A stretch of DNA of 47,243 nt, from assembly GCA_030145015.1 (NCBI GenBank), contig JAQYWI010000017.1, positions 1 through 47,243 on the forward strand. The letters run 5' to 3'. The notes beneath the pieces were generated by a model. It searched no databases. It had not been told where the DNA came from and saw only the letters and a list, made by a program, of their open reading frames with translations. Every line of letters begins with the position of its first letter. Positions within the stretch are counted from its first letter, which is position 1. The stretch comes from Desulfobacterales bacterium (GTDB lineage: Bacteria; Desulfobacterota; Desulfobacteria; Desulfobacterales; JAHEIW01). Of the stretch, positions 22-33,063 are shown one piece after another. Position numbers and translations under genes: made by a program.

Positions 22-402
22 TCAGCCTTTATAGCGTTTCCCACACTCCTTACAACGCCCACCCGCACCTATGACACCGATGCAGCTTTCATCGCTGCAT
101 AAGGTGCGATTTTCCCAGTCGCTACCCACGGTATCTGTCTGGGTTGGCTCAGTCGCATCGAAATCATCGGCTCTCTCGGAGTTGGTTTGAGTTTCATTAC
201 TTTCTCCGGTCTGGGATCCTTCATCGGTCTGGGATCCTTCATCGGCCTGGAATCCTTCATTTGACTTGCCGCATTCTTTGCAACGTCCATCCGGGCCAAT
301 CACCCCAATGCAGCTTTCATCACTGCATAAGACGCGATTTTCCCAGTCAGCTTCACCCGGTGCCATTTCATCTTCGTTTGATTCTGTGGACTTATCCGAC
401 AT
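22..402 (-). CDS. tandem zinc-ribbon-like small protein
   Basis: A 126-residue acidic protein of unknown function. It carries two near-identical Cys modules, at about residues 19-46 and 95-122, each with spacing C-x4-C-x9-C-x2-C (Cys 26, 31, 41, 44 and 102, 107, 117, 120). This spacing suggests two zinc ribbons. The linker between them is Gln/Thr/Glu-rich and contains the repeated word DEGSQT. The DNA of the two modules is also very similar, so the duplication looks recent. The ATG has a good GGAGG site that lies inside the end of the upstream HAD gene, with a 2-base gap between the genes, so this is the last gene of a three-gene operon. No signal peptide is visible, so it is probably cytoplasmic. 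Zinc binding is inferred from the Cys spacing only. Confidence 0.75.
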   Translation of the reverse strand: MSDKSTESNEDEMAPGEADWENRVLCSDESCIGVIGPDGRCKECGKSNEGFQADEGSQTDEGSQTGESNETQTNSERADDFDATEPTQTDTVGSDWENRTLCSDESCIGVIGAGGRCKECGKRYKG

Positions 403-404
403 AT

Positions 405-1022
405 TTATACCTCCAGGATTTCTTCGAGCTCTTTTAAGTTTCCGATGTGATATTCCGCCGGCAGCGTTTCGTTGCGGAAAGCTACAAATGGAATTTTCGC
501 CGCACGCGCCGCTTCGGCGTCCACCTGCGAATCACCGACGTATAGAGCCTGGTGGGCCTCGATGCCAAAATGGTCCAAAATTTTTAATAGCGCGTCCGGA
601 TAAGGCTTCGGTCGCCGGATATCAAAAGAAGTGACCACCAGGTCAAAATATTCAGTTAAAGCAAATTCAGCCAGTAACCTGTTCATGGTATCGGACCGGT
701 TGGTGGCAATCGCAGTCTTTAACTTTGCTCTTATCTTCGTGAGCAGCGGAACCAAATCGGGCTCGACTTTCAACAGTTTAAGATACGCGCTGTAGTCCAT
801 TGTTTTGCGGTACGCGTATACGGCAGCAATAGCCTCTTGGTCCTCAAACAAATACGCAATGGATTCATTCAATGTGTGTTGGTGGGCATAGGCAAACTGC
901 TCCGGCGTCAGCGTGAGCCTTCCAAAATGTTTTAAGAGATGATCGTAATAAGCCCGATTGGCCTCTTCGGTATCAAAAAGCACGCCGTCGCAATCGAAAG
1001 CCACAACTTTAATGTCTTTCAT
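405..1022 (-). CDS. HAD-superfamily phosphatase (phosphoglycolate phosphatase-like)
   Basis: A 205-residue HAD hydrolase that probably dephosphorylates a small phosphorylated metabolite in the cytoplasm. All four HAD motifs can be read: motif I FDCDGVLFDT near the N-terminus (catalytic Asp pair), motif II in IATNRSD, the conserved Lys in RPKPYPD, and motif IV YVGDSQVDAEAA. The alpha-helical cap between motifs I and II has the size of the Gph/PGMB subfamily. The true substrate cannot be told from sequence. The gene starts 6 bases after the DUF1573 gene and has only a weak ribosome site, which suggests translational coupling to it. It ends 2 bases before the zinc-ribbon gene. Confidence 0.85.
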   Translation of the reverse strand: MKDIKVVAFDCDGVLFDTEEANRAYYDHLLKHFGRLTLTPEQFAYAHQHTLNESIAYLFEDQEAIAAVYAYRKTMDYSAYLKLLKVEPDLVPLLTKIRAKLKTAIATNRSDTMNRLLAEFALTEYFDLVVTSFDIRRPKPYPDALLKILDHFGIEAHQALYVGDSQVDAEAARAAKIPFVAFRNETLPAEYHIGNLKELEEILEV

Positions 1023-1028
1023 AAAAAT

Positions 1029-2105
1029 CTACTGGCTTTTCTTCTTTTCCTCTTCTGGACGAGGTTTGATGTCACCATAAACCCTAACGCTGAGCGTGGG
1101 GCTAATTTTACTGTCGGTTTCCAGAGTAATGATATCGAAATAGCGGCCCTTTTCAAGCCGCTGATTTTCAACCGTCAGTGCATATTGAAGTCCCTTTTCA
1201 CTTTTTTCTTCCTGCAGCTGGAAACGGATCTCTTTGCCATTTTTGGCACGAACATTTAGGATTTTGAAGGGATATTTTTCCAAGGGAATTATCGTCACTT
1301 TCCCCTTGAGATGATCTCCGGTAAAACCGCGCAATCGGATATGCTGGGGTTGAATGGTAACAAATTTATCTACATTTCCGAAAATGGTAAGTTTCAGCTT
1401 TGAGTTGCGCTTATCATTGGTGTAAACCGTGGCACCCTTATTGACTTTTTTCCCGCCGTAACCTTTGGTGTTAATCTTAAGTGTTATTTGGCCCTCGCCG
1501 CCGGGAGGGATCTGCCTCGTATAAGAGACAGCCGTGCACCCTCAGTCCGTTTTGACTCTTTGGACCTCAAGGGGCGCAGCCCCTTTATTCTGTATAACAA
1601 AATTGTGGGATACTTCCTGCCCTTCGACAATCGATGTAAATTCGTAACGGGCGGCCGGTATGTAAGCCACAGGCAATTTTAAGAAAATCTTGACTAGCTC
1701 AATCCGCCGGTTCAGGGAGCGGTCTTTAGATGTATCATTTTGGGCCGCTGACCGGGAATCACCAAAGCTCTTGATCATCAACCGGCTTTGATCGACATTG
1801 TTTTTTAAAAACCATTGCTGCACCGTTTGGGCACCCTTTTTCAATATCTCACGGTTGTTTTCAGCAGAACCCCGGCTATCGCCATATGCCTCAATTTGCA
1901 AACCGATCGTCGGGTCCGCTTTAAGCGCTGCCTGAACCTTTTTCAGCTCATTTTCATACTCCGGGCTAAGGTCCGCAGAACCGTTTTTAAAATAGATCGT
2001 TGCAAGAACAACACGCTCATCATCGCCTTCAGCACCAAACGAAAATGCTGCGATGCTAACAAGACAAAGGATAGATATCAGCGCAACTCTTATATTTTTT
2101 ACCAT
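1029..2105 (-). CDS. exported OmpA-DUF1573 protein with in-frame TGA (possible selenoprotein)
   Basis: Read through one TGA, this is a single 358-codon gene. It has a signal peptide (about residues 1-24, ending in FSFGA), then an OmpA/MotB peptidoglycan-binding domain (IYFKNGSADL, SRGSAENN, RSLNRRIELV), then a DUF1573 (ASH-like) domain. The TGA is codon 188 (1544-1542). It stands where DUF1573 proteins have the first Cys of CGCT: the text reads VKTD-TGA-GCTAVSYTRQIPPGGEG. The frame stays open for 171 more codons and keeps the family pattern (TKGYGGK, VYTNDKR) to a TAG at 1031-1029. The start at 2105 is fixed by AAGGAG 8 bases upstream and by a sigma70 promoter overlapping 2149-2177, so a longer N-terminus is excluded. 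Two readings remain: a UGA-encoded selenocysteine, or a single nonsense change from TGC/TGT. Both parts are intact, which favours a working gene. No selA, selB or selD lies in this window. Confidence 0.7.
1512..1531 (-). promoter_or_regulatory. hairpin just after the in-frame TGA (SECIS-like candidate)
   Basis: On the minus strand a 7-bp stem, CTGTCTC pairing with GAGGCAG (one G-U pair), closes a 6-base loop TTATAC. The apical loop begins 17 bases after the TGA, within the 16-37 base spacing described for bacterial SECIS elements. A G in the first two loop positions, expected from that consensus, is missing. It is therefore a partial match only, and it lies inside coding sequence that also fits the DUF1573 family. 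Confidence 0.4.
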
Positions 2106-2148
2106 AAACAATACTCCTTCGCAGGACTTTTCTAATCCACTTTTATGA

Positions 2149-2177
2149 ATTTTATGTTGCCGCGCTTTTGATGTCAA
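2149..2177 (-). promoter_or_regulatory. sigma70-type promoter for the OmpA-DUF1573 operon
   Basis: On the minus strand TTGACA (2177-2172), a 17-base spacer, and TAAAAT (2154-2149). A transcript would start near 2142, leaving a leader of about 37 bases before the ATG at 2105. It also shows that the open frame upstream of 2105 is not coding. Confidence 0.7.
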
Positions 2178-2391: not shown

Positions 2392-4833
2392 TTACATGAT
2401 GTTGACGGGGTCTACGTCTATAACAACCCTGACCCCGTAATTATTAAATATCGTGGGGTTTTGGGATAGAAGCTGACCGATAAATTTATGCAACGCCTTA
2501 GCACTGATTCCTTTTAAAAGGATTTGCCATCGATACCGCTTGGCAATTTTAGTTAGAGACGCTTCAATGGGCCCCATAATCTCAACGCTGGCGTAAAGCG
2601 CTGGGTTGGCTGTTTTCACAGTCCGGCACAGGTCTCCTATATTTGTGGCCGCGTCTCTGGTTTTTAATTTGTCTTTTCCCGATATCTTAAGCTGGATCAT
2701 TCTTGAAAACGGTGGATAGTTTAAGGCTTTACGGAAACTCATTTCCTGAGTGTAAAAGGAATGAAAATCCTGATCTTTAGCAGCCATGATACTGAAATGC
2801 TCCGGATTATATGTTTGCAAAATAACCCGCCCCGGTGAAGCCCCTCTGCCCGCCCTGCCGGAAACTTGTGCTAAAAGCTGGAAGGTCCGTTCACCGGCTC
2901 GGAAATCGGGAAAATTCAATGACAAATCGGCACAGATGATCCCCACCAGAGTGATCCAAGGAAAATCGTGCCCTTTAGCGATCATCTGAGTGCCGATAAG
3001 GATATCAATCGTCCGGTCTCTGAGACCTTTAAGAATTTTCACGATTGAACCCTTGCGTGTGGTCGTATCCCGATCCATGCGCGCGGCTCTGGCATCCGGA
3101 AAAAGTTCATTTATCACAACTTCAATTTTTTCGGTACCCAGCCCTAATTTTTTTATATTGGACGATCCGCATATATCACAGCTTGACATTGCGGCACGGG
3201 AAAAACCGCAATAGTGACATTTGAATGCATTGGCCTTCTGATGAAAGGTAAGTGAAATATCACAATGTTTGCAGCGCAACGGATTTCCGCATGACCCGCA
3301 AAGCGCGAAATTTGCAAATCCGCGCCGGTTCAAAAAGAGAAGCACCTGTTCCTGGCGATGAAGCGTATCTTTTATGGCTTGATGCAGTTCCGGGGTAATG
3401 AAACGTCGTACGCCCCTGTATCCTCTGCTTTCACGAAGATCGACAATTTTAATTTCAGGCATGGGGCGGCTTTTTATGCGCTGCTCCAGCTTGACTTCAA
3501 TAAATTTCTTCGCGGAGGCATTATAATGCGATTGGAGCGAAGGCGTCGCCGACCCCAGCAATGCTAAGCAGTCATTGAGCTTTGCTCGAACCACGGCAAG
3601 ATCTCTGGCATTATAGCGCAGATTATTTTCCTGTTTATAAGAGGTATCATGCTCTTCATCTACGACAATGAGGCCGATATCGGTAAATGGCGCAAATATA
3701 GCCGATCGGGCGCCGATGGCAATATCCGCGTCTTGCTGCAAAATACGACTCCATTGATCATAACGCTCACCGGCAGACAGACCGCTATGGAGAACCGCGA
3801 TGCGCTCTCCGAACCGGGCCCGAAATCGTCTTTCCATTTGGGTAATCAGGGCGACCTCTGGAACTAACACCAATACGCATTTTCCTTTGTTGAGGGTCTC
3901 AGCAGCAACCTGCATATAGACTTCGGTTTTGCCGCTACCGGTAACCCCTTGCAAAAGAAATGTGGCAAACCCTTGATCCATACAGTCGCTAACCTGGGTC
4001 ACAACGCTTTGTTGCTCGACGTTCAAGGTGGGAGCGCTATCCGGATGGATGGGCTCGCCAAAGGGATCCCGAAAAATTCTTTTGTCTCGAACCTTTACGT
4101 AGCCGTCATTTTCAAGCGCGCGAATAAGGCGCGCTGCAGTCGGCACCCGTTTTTTGAGTTTCACTACCGGAATTTCGCCGTCGGATTTTAAGATTGCCAG
4201 GATCTTTTTTCTGGATTTTGAAAGCCGGTCAATTGACAGGGTTGCATCTGCAAGGCTTACAAAGCGCTCCATACGGGATTTTGTAGCAGCATCCCTGAGC
4301 TCTCTTATCTGTAAAATCCGGCCGGCCCGTTGAAGAGATTGGATAAGTGCAGCGGGAATGGTTTGATGAAGATTCTGGTTTAATTTTTTAAGCCGAACCG
4401 GCCCGGCTTCCAGAAGCATTAAGACATCTCTTTCTATAAGTGTTGCCCGATTCTCTTTAAGGGTGCGCTTGCCCTCATCTGTAAGGACAATGGAAGCATA
4501 ATCGTAAAGCGTCAGTCCCCCTGGAAGGCCATTTTTGATAACATTACCGATGGGATATTTATAATAGTCCGAAATCCATTGAAAAAAAGGGATCATGGAC
4601 TGTGGAAACAAGGGCTTTTCGTCCAGCACATCCAGGACATGCTTGATTTCACCCGGGTTGATGTCGGGACTCGTCCCTAAAATATAGCCCGTGACCCTGC
4701 GTCGACCGAAAGGTACGAGGACGCGTTTCCCAGCCGTTATAAACGGCCACAAGGCTTCCGGAACGCTGTAAGTAAAGGTCTTGTAGACAGGTAACGCAAC
4801 CGCAACCTCGATATATGTGTTTTCGGATTCCAT
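2392..4833 (-). CDS. priA: primosomal replication helicase PriA
   Basis: An 813-residue PriA (N'), the 3'-5' DNA helicase that restarts stalled replication forks. The N-terminal DNA-binding domain begins EVAVALPVYKTFTYSVP. The helicase core has Walker A GVTGSGKTEVY and the DEEHD box (motif II). The paired zinc-binding Cys clusters lie in CGSCGNPLRCKHCD and FKCHYCGF...CDICGSSN. The helicase C-terminal motifs GTQMIAKGHDFP and QVSGRAGRG are intact. The length is normal for the family (about 730-830). It is a single gene with no close operon partner. The ribosome site before the ATG is weak. Confidence 0.97.
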   Translation of the reverse strand: MESENTYIEVAVALPVYKTFTYSVPEALWPFITAGKRVLVPFGRRRVTGYILGTSPDINPGEIKHVLDVLDEKPLFPQSMIPFFQWISDYYKYPIGNVIKNGLPGGLTLYDYASIVLTDEGKRTLKENRATLIERDVLMLLEAGPVRLKKLNQNLHQTIPAALIQSLQRAGRILQIRELRDAATKSRMERFVSLADATLSIDRLSKSRKKILAILKSDGEIPVVKLKKRVPTAARLIRALENDGYVKVRDKRIFRDPFGEPIHPDSAPTLNVEQQSVVTQVSDCMDQGFATFLLQGVTGSGKTEVYMQVAAETLNKGKCVLVLVPEVALITQMERRFRARFGERIAVLHSGLSAGERYDQWSRILQQDADIAIGARSAIFAPFTDIGLIVVDEEHDTSYKQENNLRYNARDLAVVRAKLNDCLALLGSATPSLQSHYNASAKKFIEVKLEQRIKSRPMPEIKIVDLRESRGYRGVRRFITPELHQAIKDTLHRQEQVLLFLNRRGFANFALCGSCGNPLRCKHCDISLTFHQKANAFKCHYCGFSRAAMSSCDICGSSNIKKLGLGTEKIEVVINELFPDARAARMDRDTTTRKGSIVKILKGLRDRTIDILIGTQMIAKGHDFPWITLVGIICADLSLNFPDFRAGERTFQLLAQVSGRAGRGASPGRVILQTYNPEHFSIMAAKDQDFHSFYTQEMSFRKALNYPPFSRMIQLKISGKDKLKTRDAATNIGDLCRTVKTANPALYASVEIMGPIEASLTKIAKRYRWQILLKGISAKALHKFIGQLLSQNPTIFNNYGVRVVIDVDPVNIM

Positions 4834-23093: not shown

Positions 23094-24101
23094 TTAACTC
23101 AAGAGAAAGCCCTTCCCATGGGGATCATCAGGGTCTATGAATAACTGATTGATTCCCATAATATGCGCACTTCCGGTTACCTCCGGGACAATCGCGCTAA
23201 ATGGACCGACACGGGTCTCCTCGACGATTCTGGCCTTAAATATGCTCCCGATGATACTCTCGTGGACGAACTCCTGATTGAGCTTTAACTCGCCCTTGGT
23301 ATGCATAACGGCAAGCTTGGCGGAAGTACCCGTCCCACATGGCGATCGGTCGATTCCGGATTCAGCAAAAAAAACCGTATTTTTCAGGTGGGCTTCCGCT
23401 GAAGTGGGTTGGCCGTAAAATTCCACATGCGTGCATTCATTAATAAAATTTTTTTCAGGATGCAGTATCTTCACCTGGGCATTTACCGCCGCTTTGATCC
23501 TTCTGCCGATGTCAATCACCTTGCGCGCATTTTCGGGTCGAATCTCAAGGCCGACGGCGCCCGCCGGCAGGATCGCATACACATTGCCGCCGTAAGCAAC
23601 ATCCATGATAAGCTTCCCAAAACCCGGCACATCGACCTCGGCATCTTCAGCCAAAACGAATGAGGGTATGTTTTTAAAGGTGACACTCTTGGCTTTGCCG
23701 TTTTCCACATCCACACGAATACGGGTCAATCCGGCCGGGGTGTCCAATACGATGCGGGTAACCGGCTCCTCCACCTTGACCATACCGGTTTCCACCAGGG
23801 CGGTACAGACACCGATGGTATCATGGCCGCACATGGGCAGGTAGCCGGTGGTTTCAATAAAAATGACCCCGATATCTGCTTCGGCGTGAGTCGGTTCGGT
23901 TAGAATAACACCGGACATGATGTCGTGACCCCGAGGTTCAAACATCAAAGACGTTCGTATCCAGTCCATGTTTTCCTTTAAATGGGTCATCTTCTCCACA
24001 ATGGTGGCTCCCGGGATGTATGGAATACCCCCGGTAATTGTCCGGGTGGGCTGCCCGCCGGTATGGGTGTCGATGGATGAGAATACATGCTTGATTTTCA
24101 T
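23094..24101 (-). CDS. proline racemase family, Cys/Cys type 1 (4-hydroxyproline 2-epimerase-like)
   Basis: A 335-residue protein of the proline racemase superfamily. It keeps both catalytic Cys residues: Cys 91 in YLPMCGHDTIG and Cys 255 in GIDRSPCGTGTSA. The Cys/Cys pair marks proline racemases and hydroxyproline 2-epimerases, which move the alpha proton by a two-base mechanism. Beside a DapA-type lyase and a D-hydroxyproline dehydrogenase operon, the likely reaction is trans-4-hydroxy-L-proline to cis-4-hydroxy-D-proline. Proline racemase remains possible. It is 45% or so like the second copy at 25411-26454 by eye, with the same spacing of key residues. A gap of 109 bases with a tandem word separates it from the upstream DapA gene. 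Confidence 0.9.
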   Translation of the reverse strand: MKIKHVFSSIDTHTGGQPTRTITGGIPYIPGATIVEKMTHLKENMDWIRTSLMFEPRGHDIMSGVILTEPTHAEADIGVIFIETTGYLPMCGHDTIGVCTALVETGMVKVEEPVTRIVLDTPAGLTRIRVDVENGKAKSVTFKNIPSFVLAEDAEVDVPGFGKLIMDVAYGGNVYAILPAGAVGLEIRPENARKVIDIGRRIKAAVNAQVKILHPEKNFINECTHVEFYGQPTSAEAHLKNTVFFAESGIDRSPCGTGTSAKLAVMHTKGELKLNQEFVHESIIGSIFKARIVEETRVGPFSAIVPEVTGSAHIMGINQLFIDPDDPHGKGFLLS

Positions 24102-25410: not shown

Positions 25411-26454
25411 TTAGGTCCTAAATCCAAATCCATACAGCTTCTCTATTTTCCCGAGGTGAAAGCCTTCGGGAAACGGGTCTCGGGGGTCAACAACAAACTG
25501 CTGAATTCCCGTGATATATGCGCTGCCCCGAATGGTTGGAACAACAGCCTGATATTCCCCCACTTTCGTTTCCTCTATGAGTTCACCGTAGAACAGAGTT
25601 CCGATGATACTTTCGTGAACAAATTCCTCCTTCAGGCTGAGTTTCCCTTTTGAATAGAGGGTTGCCATCTTGGCACAGGTCCCCGTACCGCAGGGAGACC
25701 GGTCCATGCCTGCCGGGGGTACTACCACGGCATTCTTCATGGTGGCCTTTGGATGAGTCGCTGGAGCACAAAACTCCACATAGTTGATACAATCTATCTG
25801 TGGTTCTTGAGGGTGACAGATCTCAACCTGTTGGTTAACTGCCTGCCATATCTTTGCACCCAATGATATGAGTTTATTCGCATTCTCGGTTCTTACCTCC
25901 AGCCCCACCCTTTCAGCCTCCACAATAGCGTAAAAGTTGCCCCCATACGCAATATCCAGCTTCACGCGTCCCACATCGGCAACATCCAGTTCTACACCCG
26001 CCTTGTAGAGGAAGGATGGTACGTTGCGGATGGTAACGGATTCGGCCCTTCCATCCTTTAGGGCCACCTTGGCCCGCACGAGTCCGGCAGGCGTATCCAG
26101 CGCAATATCGGTTTCAGGCTCCCGAGCTTTAATGATGCCTGTTTCTATCAAAACGGTACAGATCGCTATTGTTCCATGGCCGCACATAGTCACATACCCA
26201 CCCGGCTCTAAATACAGCACCCCGATATCGGCTTCTTCTACAGCAGGCGGAACAAGGAGAGCGGCGTACATATTGCTGTGGCCCCGAGGTTCATGTACCA
26301 GCATGGTGCGAAGATAATCCAAATTATCGCGTGCATACTTTGATTTCTCAAGCATGGTTTTGCCGGGAATAGATGGTATCCCACCCGTAACCACCCGCTC
26401 CGGATTCCCCTCTGTATGGGTATCGATTGCGGTTATGATTTTTGTGAAATTCAT
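25411..26454 (-). CDS. proline racemase family, Cys/Cys type 2
   Basis: A 347-residue member with both catalytic Cys: Cys 91 in YVTMCGHGTIAI and Cys 255 in GMDRSPCGTGTCA. It is therefore an epimerase or racemase by the residue rule, not a dehydratase. Residue positions coincide with those of the paralogue at 23094-24101, while the substrate-facing positions differ: CGHGT against CGHDT after Cys 91, and PPAGMDRSP against AESGIDRSP before the second Cys. That points to a different preferred substrate, for example proline or another hydroxyproline isomer. It is transcribed away from the livF gene and towards the DapA paralogue, with a MITE-like element between. Confidence 0.9.
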   Translation of the reverse strand: MNFTKIITAIDTHTEGNPERVVTGGIPSIPGKTMLEKSKYARDNLDYLRTMLVHEPRGHSNMYAALLVPPAVEEADIGVLYLEPGGYVTMCGHGTIAICTVLIETGIIKAREPETDIALDTPAGLVRAKVALKDGRAESVTIRNVPSFLYKAGVELDVADVGRVKLDIAYGGNFYAIVEAERVGLEVRTENANKLISLGAKIWQAVNQQVEICHPQEPQIDCINYVEFCAPATHPKATMKNAVVVPPAGMDRSPCGTGTCAKMATLYSKGKLSLKEEFVHESIIGTLFYGELIEETKVGEYQAVVPTIRGSAYITGIQQFVVDPRDPFPEGFHLGKIEKLYGFGFRT

Positions 26455-32037: not shown

Positions 32038-33063
32038 TTAGCCCAGCAAAAACCCGTTTCTGAGCGGGTCATTGGGATCAATTAAAAATTCGTGGCGACC
32101 GGTGATATAGGCTGTGCCCTCCACTTCCGGAATAATGGCAGGGTGAGGACCGAAACTGGAGGTCTGGACAACACGCCCGCTGAAGCGGCTGCCAATAATA
32201 CTTTCAATAATGATAGATTCGTTAAGGTCAATTTCACTCCGTACGTGATGGATTGCTAAACGAGCACTGACCCCTGTACCGGTCGGACTGCGATCCAATT
32301 CCCCTTCAGCAAAGATGCAAACGTTGCGGCTATGCGCACCTTCTGCTTGTGGCGGGCCAATGAAAATGGTGCCGTAAAGAAAACTCAGATCCTCTTCAAA
32401 AGGGTGAGGAATTGGCCGACTGGCCATGATGGAGCGCTTGATGGCCATCCCCTTTTCGATGAGCGCCCGAAAGTCTTCGGGACGGCAGCGCACACCGACC
32501 TCTTCAGCCTGTACAAATGCATAAAATGCTCCCCCAAAAGCAATGTCGCAGCTGACTTTGCCGAGGCCCGGTACGTCGACCGTTTCATTCATAGTCAGTA
32601 CAAAAGACGGTACATTGTGAAAATAGACGCTTTGCACACGCCCCTCGCTGACGCGTGCGTGGGCGGTTACCAAACCGGCCGGCGTGTCGATTTTTACCTG
32701 GGTTTCGGGAGAAGACATGGGCACCAGACCGGCCTCAAGAGCCACGGTGGTGATACCGATTATACCGTGGCCGCACATGGTGCTGTATCCTTCGTTGTGC
32801 ATGAACAATACGCCGAAATCGGCTTCCGGCGTAACCGGCGGGACAACAATACAGCCATACATATCGGCATGACCGCGTGGTTCCCACATAAGAGCCGTGC
32901 GCAGATGATCCAGGTTTTCCAAAGCGTATCGGCGCCGCGCCAGGATGCTATCACCCGGCAATTCAGGATAACCACCGGTGATCACTCGAAAAGGTTCACC
33001 TTCGGTATGGGCATCAATGCTGGTGATTTTTAGCCAATGTTTCGGCGGTGTCCAATTTTTCAT
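32038..33063 (-). CDS. trans-3-hydroxy-L-proline dehydratase (proline racemase family, Cys/Thr)
   Basis: A 341-residue member of the proline racemase superfamily. Its first catalytic residue is Cys 97 (YSTMCGHGIIGI), but the second position is Thr 261 (ELDRSPTGTGVSARL) instead of Cys. The Cys/Thr pair is the mark of trans-3-hydroxy-L-proline dehydratases, known from human L3HYPDH and from bacteria and archaea. The product pyrroline-2-carboxylate would be reduced by the enzyme at 13092-14069. It is 42 bases downstream of an FAD oxidase gene on the same strand, so probably cotranscribed. I am confident of the family and residue pair. The substrate is family knowledge. Confidence 0.92.
   Translation of the reverse strand: MKNWTPPKHWLKITSIDAHTEGEPFRVITGGYPELPGDSILARRRYALENLDHLRTALMWEPRGHADMYGCIVVPPVTPEADFGVLFMHNEGYSTMCGHGIIGITTVALEAGLVPMSSPETQVKIDTPAGLVTAHARVSEGRVQSVYFHNVPSFVLTMNETVDVPGLGKVSCDIAFGGAFYAFVQAEEVGVRCRPEDFRALIEKGMAIKRSIMASRPIPHPFEEDLSFLYGTIFIGPPQAEGAHSRNVCIFAEGELDRSPTGTGVSARLAIHHVRSEIDLNESIIIESIIGSRFSGRVVQTSSFGPHPAIIPEVEGTAYITGRHEFLIDPNDPLRNGFLLG

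Follow-up and report, generated by a model that had tools for sequence, protein, structure and literature searches.

Selenoproteins with a DUF1573 domain are already on record. A published table lists 'OS_HP2, pfam07610, UxC' (PMC2398784), and the selenoprotein tables excerpted from two reviews, with reference to Zhang and Gladyshev 2007, show UGC as the motif of DUF1573 (PMC9312934, PMC13188914). For the RNA signal that directs selenocysteine (Sec) insertion, the bacterial SECIS model as printed in the consulted part of PMC13188914 comprises an apical loop of 3-9 nt on an upper stem of 4-16 bp, at least one G in loop positions 1-2 (a rule that some genes fail), a distance of 16-37 nt from the UGA to the apical loop, and a minimum free energy of -7.5 kcal/mol or lower. 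The literature passages on the DUF1573 family show no RNA signal for these selenoproteins and make no mention of a fusion to OmpA.

The locus compared with these systems here lies in a stretch of 47,243 nucleotides from a Desulfobacterales bacterium (assembly GCA_030145015.1, contig JAQYWI010000017.1, from position 1), which we call the window. Judged from its sequence and its relatives, the gene at 1029-2105 is very probably a selenoprotein gene, with the following features:

1029-2105, minus strand: putative OmpA-DUF1573 selenoprotein gene, 358 aa from ATG to TAG if the TGA is read through
1542-1544, minus strand: in-frame TGA, the proposed Sec codon, residue 188
2034-2105, minus strand: probable signal peptide, roughly residues 1-24, judged by eye from its basic start, a hydrophobic stretch and AFSFGA
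1707-1994, minus strand: OmpA domain, residues 38-133 (PF00691; OmpA_C fold in the structural model)
1371-1649, minus strand: DUF1573 domain, residues 153-245 (PF07610), with U188-G-C190
1065-1361, minus strand: further beta domain at about residues 249-347, modelled by AlphaFold with pLDDT above 90 for the most part
2149-2177, minus strand: promoter-like site TTGACA-17-TAAAAT, a pattern match only
2114-2119, minus strand: ribosome-binding site AAGGAG, read from the sequence
405-1022, minus strand: HAD-like hydrolase gene that follows in the operon (PF13419, 116 bits)
2392-4833, minus strand: upstream gene, which we take to be a PriA-like helicase gene; a relative is present in 22 of the best 80 of 105 loci, many of these loci being cut short

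The minus-strand frame opens with an ATG at 2105, closes with a TAG at 1031-1029 and is interrupted only once, by the TGA at 1544-1542. This codon occupies the first residue of the conserved C/U-x-C (the C-G-C-T motif) of the DUF1573 domain, as the earlier note on this DNA had proposed: the coordinates are as claimed, and the DUF1573 match (74 bits, gathering cut-off 26.1) covers residue 188. The note was also right that the OmpA and DUF1573 parts share one frame with the TGA as the sole split, the OmpA match reaching 57.2 bits against a gathering cut-off of 27.2, and the 171 codons it described as intact after the TGA are 170 sense codons and the stop. The window has 18 TGA codons flanked on each side by open frame for 60 codons or more, and among these a U-x-C arises at 1544-1542 only. 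Two plus-strand TGA codons, at 25864 and 30945, would give C-x-x-U but are antisense to long ORFs.

Concerning the promoter and ribosome-binding site ascribed to the gene, AAGGAG is in place and the promoter pattern matches at 11/12, but a scan of the region with this pattern returned four sites versus 2.1 expected from shuffled sequences, so that the site at 2177-2149 is no proof of a promoter. The following HAD gene starts with an ATG at 1022, 6 nt past the stop of the putative selenoprotein gene, and by eye there is no clear Shine-Dalgarno sequence near this ATG, in agreement with the weak ribosome-binding site noted before. A HAD-like relative occurs in 56 of the best 80 of 105 loci, in 43 of these 56 at -20 to +60 nt from the gene end; because of this closeness, good access of ribosomes to the HAD gene may depend on their passing the UGA. 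Besides, a 126-aa protein encoded at 22-402 (minus strand) carries the motif CSDESCIGVIGxxGRCKECGK twice and has no Pfam match; its relatives stand after the HAD gene in 4 of the best 80 of 105 loci. Elsewhere in the window, three similar proline racemase or hydroxyproline epimerase-like ORFs (23094-24101, 25411-26454 and 32038-33063, minus strand; assigned by eye) sit among dehydrogenase, aldolase-like and ABC transporter genes.

With respect to family membership, residues 150-245 match the NCBIfam model NF041425 (OS_HP2 family (seleno)protein) with 144.5 bits at a cut-off of 100, and U188-G-C190 has Sec in the first position of the U/C-x-C, where the OS_HP2 family carries Sec or Cys. The idea of a new selenoprotein family is thus lost, since the protein passes the cut-off of an existing family model and the excerpted tables already list DUF1573 with UGC (PMC9312934, PMC13188914); the same entries, together with OS_HP2 UxC (PMC2398784), do describe Sec-containing DUF1573 proteins, of which the earlier note knew none, and place the UxC pair itself among known motifs. 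NF041425 exceeded its cut-off in all 20 genomes of relatives, and likewise in 169 out of 192 genomes sampled from the class to which genome G003 belongs. Among the matches listed for the 192-genome sample, at least 19 were free of stops by hand count, and the other matches listed had one TGA each. One genome (G167) holds 13 OS_HP2-family matches, an expansion.

The AlphaFold model (mean pLDDT 84.8) consists of an OmpA_C-like domain and two beta domains, and places residue 188 between the strands 179-186 and 191-195. Its DUF1573 part resembles PapD/ASH-like Ig domains and its OmpA part resembles peptidoglycan-binding domains. At the positions that we take to be the diaminopimelate-binding Asp and Arg of OmpA, inspection by eye found the Asp present (GDSRG) and the Arg replaced by Gly (KKGAQ), which sets the window copy apart from OmpA C-terminal peptidoglycan-binding domains such as 3td3. 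The Arg is present in the homologues P0007 and P0008, and the Asp is missing in two of the related loci (L001, L002). Owing to the replaced Arg in the window and the missing Asp in these relatives, it is doubtful from the sequences that the OmpA module of the window protein binds peptidoglycan. Apart from the window, an OmpA fusion was found in 3 of the best 80 of 105 loci, and both domains also occur in the database homologues P0002 to P0004. Since the OmpA part is N-terminal in the window, L001 and L002 and C-terminal in L030, the fusion probably arose twice.

To compare the codon at the Sec site, we scanned one genome per species from 84,980 species with the peptide pattern [RK][QL]IPPGGEG and with another pattern having W or C at the site; 130 pattern matches gave 105 confirmed loci, of which the best 80 were kept. 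In these best 80 of 105 loci the site codon is TGA in 77, TGT in 3 and TGG in none, and the U/C-x-C motif is present in 80/80, in a sample that favours loci with the peptide [RK][QL]IPPGGEG because TGA loci could be obtained only through this pattern. The TGA loci include isolates of Desulfatitalea alkaliphila, Desulfospira joergensenii, Desulfobacter latus and D. vibrioformis as well as an Olavius algarvensis symbiont. Where the codon is not TGA it always encodes Cys, never Trp, both in the 3 loci among the best 80 of 105 and in 22 further copies (6 among the family matches of the 20 relatives' genomes and 16 taken from the stop-free matches of the 192-genome sample); these 25 Cys copies include some without the full IPPGGEG peptide. 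The earlier note had named a TGA-versus-Cys comparison in relatives as a check and decay of the downstream half as a refutation: the comparison came out for TGA, and the decay is absent, all 77 TGA copies remaining open for 157-367 codons after the TGA. Where computable, among the 25 of 63 pairs listed, dN/dS is 0.09-0.46 downstream of the TGA and 0.12-0.48 upstream, which points to purifying selection on the part behind the TGA. One of the 77 TGA copies (L070) has an in-frame TAG three codons before the site (position 884), where the close relative L066 has Lys; this is either a sequencing error or another recoding.

These comparisons bear directly on the possibility that the TGA is a true stop, be it in a pseudogene, as a sequencing error for Cys, or at the end of an OmpA-like protein followed by a dead or separately started DUF1573 tail. 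The standard code does end the frame at this codon, and the window DNA by itself is compatible with an error. However, such a stop would cut the DUF1573 domain mid-way, and it would have to recur at the same site in 77 of the best 80 of 105 loci, with TGG in none, in front of tails that are intact in 77/77 and apparently under purifying selection, so that we regard a true stop as very improbable. Another explanation, reading of UGA as Trp in an organism using code 4, draws on the protein databases. A search returned 46 homologues, and among the 39 that were aligned, 26 have W at the site (P0002-P0004, P0006, P0009, P0012-P0029, P0031, P0032 and P0034), 7 have C, 5 end exactly before the site and in 1 the region is missing. 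Yet no contig behind the 26 W proteins is longer than 2332 bases, and three of these proteins share 94.7-98.3% identity with genome loci in which the site codon is TGA. In addition, the alternative codons described above are those of Cys, and many ORFs in the same genomes terminate in TGA. Comparison of these sequences suggests that the W is very likely the product of gene calling with code 4 (TGA = Trp) on short contigs, and that the homologues ending before the site would be copies of this gene truncated at the stop; a genuine Trp is hardly conceivable. In the databases searched, the family is often split at the stop or given Trp in place of Sec.

The preferred reading as a selenoprotein gene also requires a Sec machinery, and the genomes of relatives have it. 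Among 20 such genomes, matches over the cut-off were obtained for SelA in 20 and for SelB, SelD and tRNA-Sec in 19 each, the gaps falling in draft genomes (G006 without SelB over the cut-off, G016 without SelD and tRNA-Sec); each SelD of these genomes carries its own in-frame TGA. In 14 control genomes, tRNA-Sec exceeded the cut-off in 5, SelB in 2, SelD in 2 and SelA in 1. Because control genomes also pass single models, a tRNA-Sec match alone is weak and the combination counts more. As a separate observation, four genomes (G010, G011, G012 and G020) contain a second SelB over the cut-off (at loci L115, L116, L117 and L118, respectively) that adjoins another tRNA-Sec, which scores lower (52-61 bits) and has the anticodon UCA in 4/4. 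In G010, G011 and G012, a Cys copy of the DUF1573 gene lies 1.5 to 11 kb away, beside HdrA- and MvhD-like genes (named by eye).

Downstream of the UGA, two RNA hairpins were found (nucleotides counted from the U of the UGA):

1512-1531, minus strand: hairpin 1, nucleotides 14-20 paired with 27-33, loop UUAUAC, resembling a SECIS but lacking the G of the consensus loop
1492-1509, minus strand: hairpin 2, nucleotides 36-40 paired with 49-53, loop CCGGCGGC

The window sequence alone folds modestly better than shuffled sequences (z of -1.32 for 45 nt and -2.23 for 40 nt). Conservation was assessed on the 78 TGA sequences (77 distinct), divided by eye from the alignment, before the stems were counted by group, into a main clade of 65 and 13 Desulfobacter-like sequences; left undivided, hairpin 1 is found in 58/78. 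In the main clade, the inner 5-bp stem of hairpin 1 is complete in 58/65 (at most 4 in 200 synonymous resamplings), hairpin 2 in 62/65 (at most 10 in 200 resamplings), and a lower stem of nucleotides 2-6 with 36-40 in 40/65 (resamplings with a mean of 5.0 and at most 13). As the sequences are related, they were also thinned to below 50% identity, after which 16/18 of the main clade retain hairpin 1 and 18/18 hairpin 2. RNAalifold on the main-clade alignment predicts both, with small differences in the inner part of the second. Among the Desulfobacter-like sequences, hairpin 1 occurs in this register in 0/13, although the segment still folds better than its resampled versions; in second place these sequences form a hairpin in another register in 13/13 (at most 4 when resampled; 2/2 after thinning).

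For hairpin 1 there is also covariation, as 53 cells are changed on both sides versus 11.7 in shuffles (0/500 shuffles as high), and 77.2% of its cells are paired versus 31-41% in slid controls. Of five measures of covariation, two were unremarkable against 500 shuffles, namely pairs with both sides changed (6 versus 4.3; 32/500 as high) and further pair types (12 versus 10.9; 143/500 as high). In one pair, U17-A30 alternates with C17-G30, a Val/Ala difference tied to the choice between AGA and AGG. Separately from both hairpins, a strong hairpin AAGGGGCGCAGCCCCTT (plus strand) lies at 1569-1585 of the window, inside the gene and about 25 nt before the TGA.

The Cys copies form hairpin 1 in 2/25 and hairpin 2 in 3/25. 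Expressed as mean z against synonymous resampling for nucleotides 12-35 and 34-57, the main clade has -2.90 and -1.64, the Desulfobacter-like sequences -1.59 and -0.93, the Cys copies -0.53 and +0.13, and 20 SelD genes from the relatives' genomes -2.50 and +0.03, the last value giving no second hairpin in these SelD genes (n=20). From the values of the Cys copies and of SelD, both hairpins go with the TGA, and the second is, within this comparison, particular to the OS_HP2/DUF1573 family.

Whether hairpin 2 belongs to the signal can be argued both ways. The signal could be complete with hairpin 1 and the lower stem 2-6/36-40, hairpin 2 being dispensable and kept for another reason: hairpin 1 sits in the same place as the hairpins of SelD, which does without a second one; the lower stem, which shares a strand with hairpin 2, is itself above chance; and hairpin 2 shows no pairs changed on both sides, because the protein constrains most of its positions. 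Against this, a Glu codon in the region is GAG in 65/65 main-clade sequences, compared with 266/843 Glu codons in other parts of these genes, a choice that agrees with pairing in hairpin 2 but not in the lower stem; the Desulfobacter-like sequences keep their hairpin of the other register in 13/13, with GAA in 12; and hairpin 2 is rare in the Cys copies. We consider a signal of hairpin 1 alone a serious possibility, if below even. The other candidate, a bipartite signal outside the printed SECIS model, would combine a G-less hairpin at normal distance with a G-rich-loop hairpin lying some 20 nt beyond it, and the SelB that also reads the G-loop SECIS of SelD would require the two for efficient decoding; this we hold tentatively, as slightly less likely than not.

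Taken together, the conservation of the TGA, its alternation with Cys, the intact and selected tail, the conserved stems and the Sec machinery of relatives argue for a selenoprotein, and with high confidence we read the locus as a gene for one whole OS_HP2/DUF1573 selenoprotein in which the UGA is read as Sec by means of the downstream RNA; export, a periplasmic redox pair and read-through to the HAD gene are probable further parts of this reading. In this scheme, SelB with Sec-tRNA-Sec would read the UGA at 1544-1542 as selenocysteine, a capacity that we attribute to the organism of the window from its relatives, hairpin 1 at the SECIS position would direct decoding and hairpin 2 would probably assist. 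The finished protein would be exported and reside in the periplasm, with two Ig-like beta domains behind an OmpA-like module and with U188-G-C190 on an inter-strand loop of the first Ig-like domain. There, U188 and C190 would most likely form a reversible selenenylsulfide acting in envelope thiol redox; among possible functions such a periplasmic UxC redox role appears the most likely one, and we consider it rather probable. Ribosomes passing the UGA may also continue to the closely spaced HAD gene, coupling its translation to Sec decoding.

Compared with the OS_HP2/DUF1573 selenoproteins, the window protein is alike in its domain, in a U-G-C with Sec first and in the bacterial group, and differs from them, as far as the passages describe them, by its N-terminal OmpA domain. 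Apparently new, within the searches made, are the joining of OmpA to DUF1573, how widespread the Sec form is among these relatives, and a signal of two hairpins that lacks the loop G. Hairpin 1 resembles a bacterial SECIS in that it directly follows the UGA and has a 7-bp stem with a 6-nt loop, both within the printed ranges (PMC13188914, consulted in part). The same applies to the distance between UGA and loop, with 17 nt for hairpin 1 and 37 nt for hairpin 2 with its 8-nt loop, and to the energy, with -16.6 kcal/mol for nucleotides 1-45 and -8.7 kcal/mol for hairpin 1 alone. In contrast to the model, the loop UUAUAC has no G in its first positions, and a second conserved hairpin follows, which by eye has the loop G only if two inner C-G pairs are formed. 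G-loop hairpins with an energy of -3 kcal/mol or lower occur in 19/78 sequences of the family; for SelD, the G is present in the best hairpin of 20/20 genes, and 18/20 reach -3 kcal/mol. It may be that SelB tolerates a loop lacking G, that the G-rich hairpin 2 plays a part, or that both apply. The two-hairpin signal offers a natural test of what SelB requires, with the SelD of the same cell as the canonical control. Should it truly direct insertion, such genes would be overlooked by SECIS finders in which the loop G is demanded.
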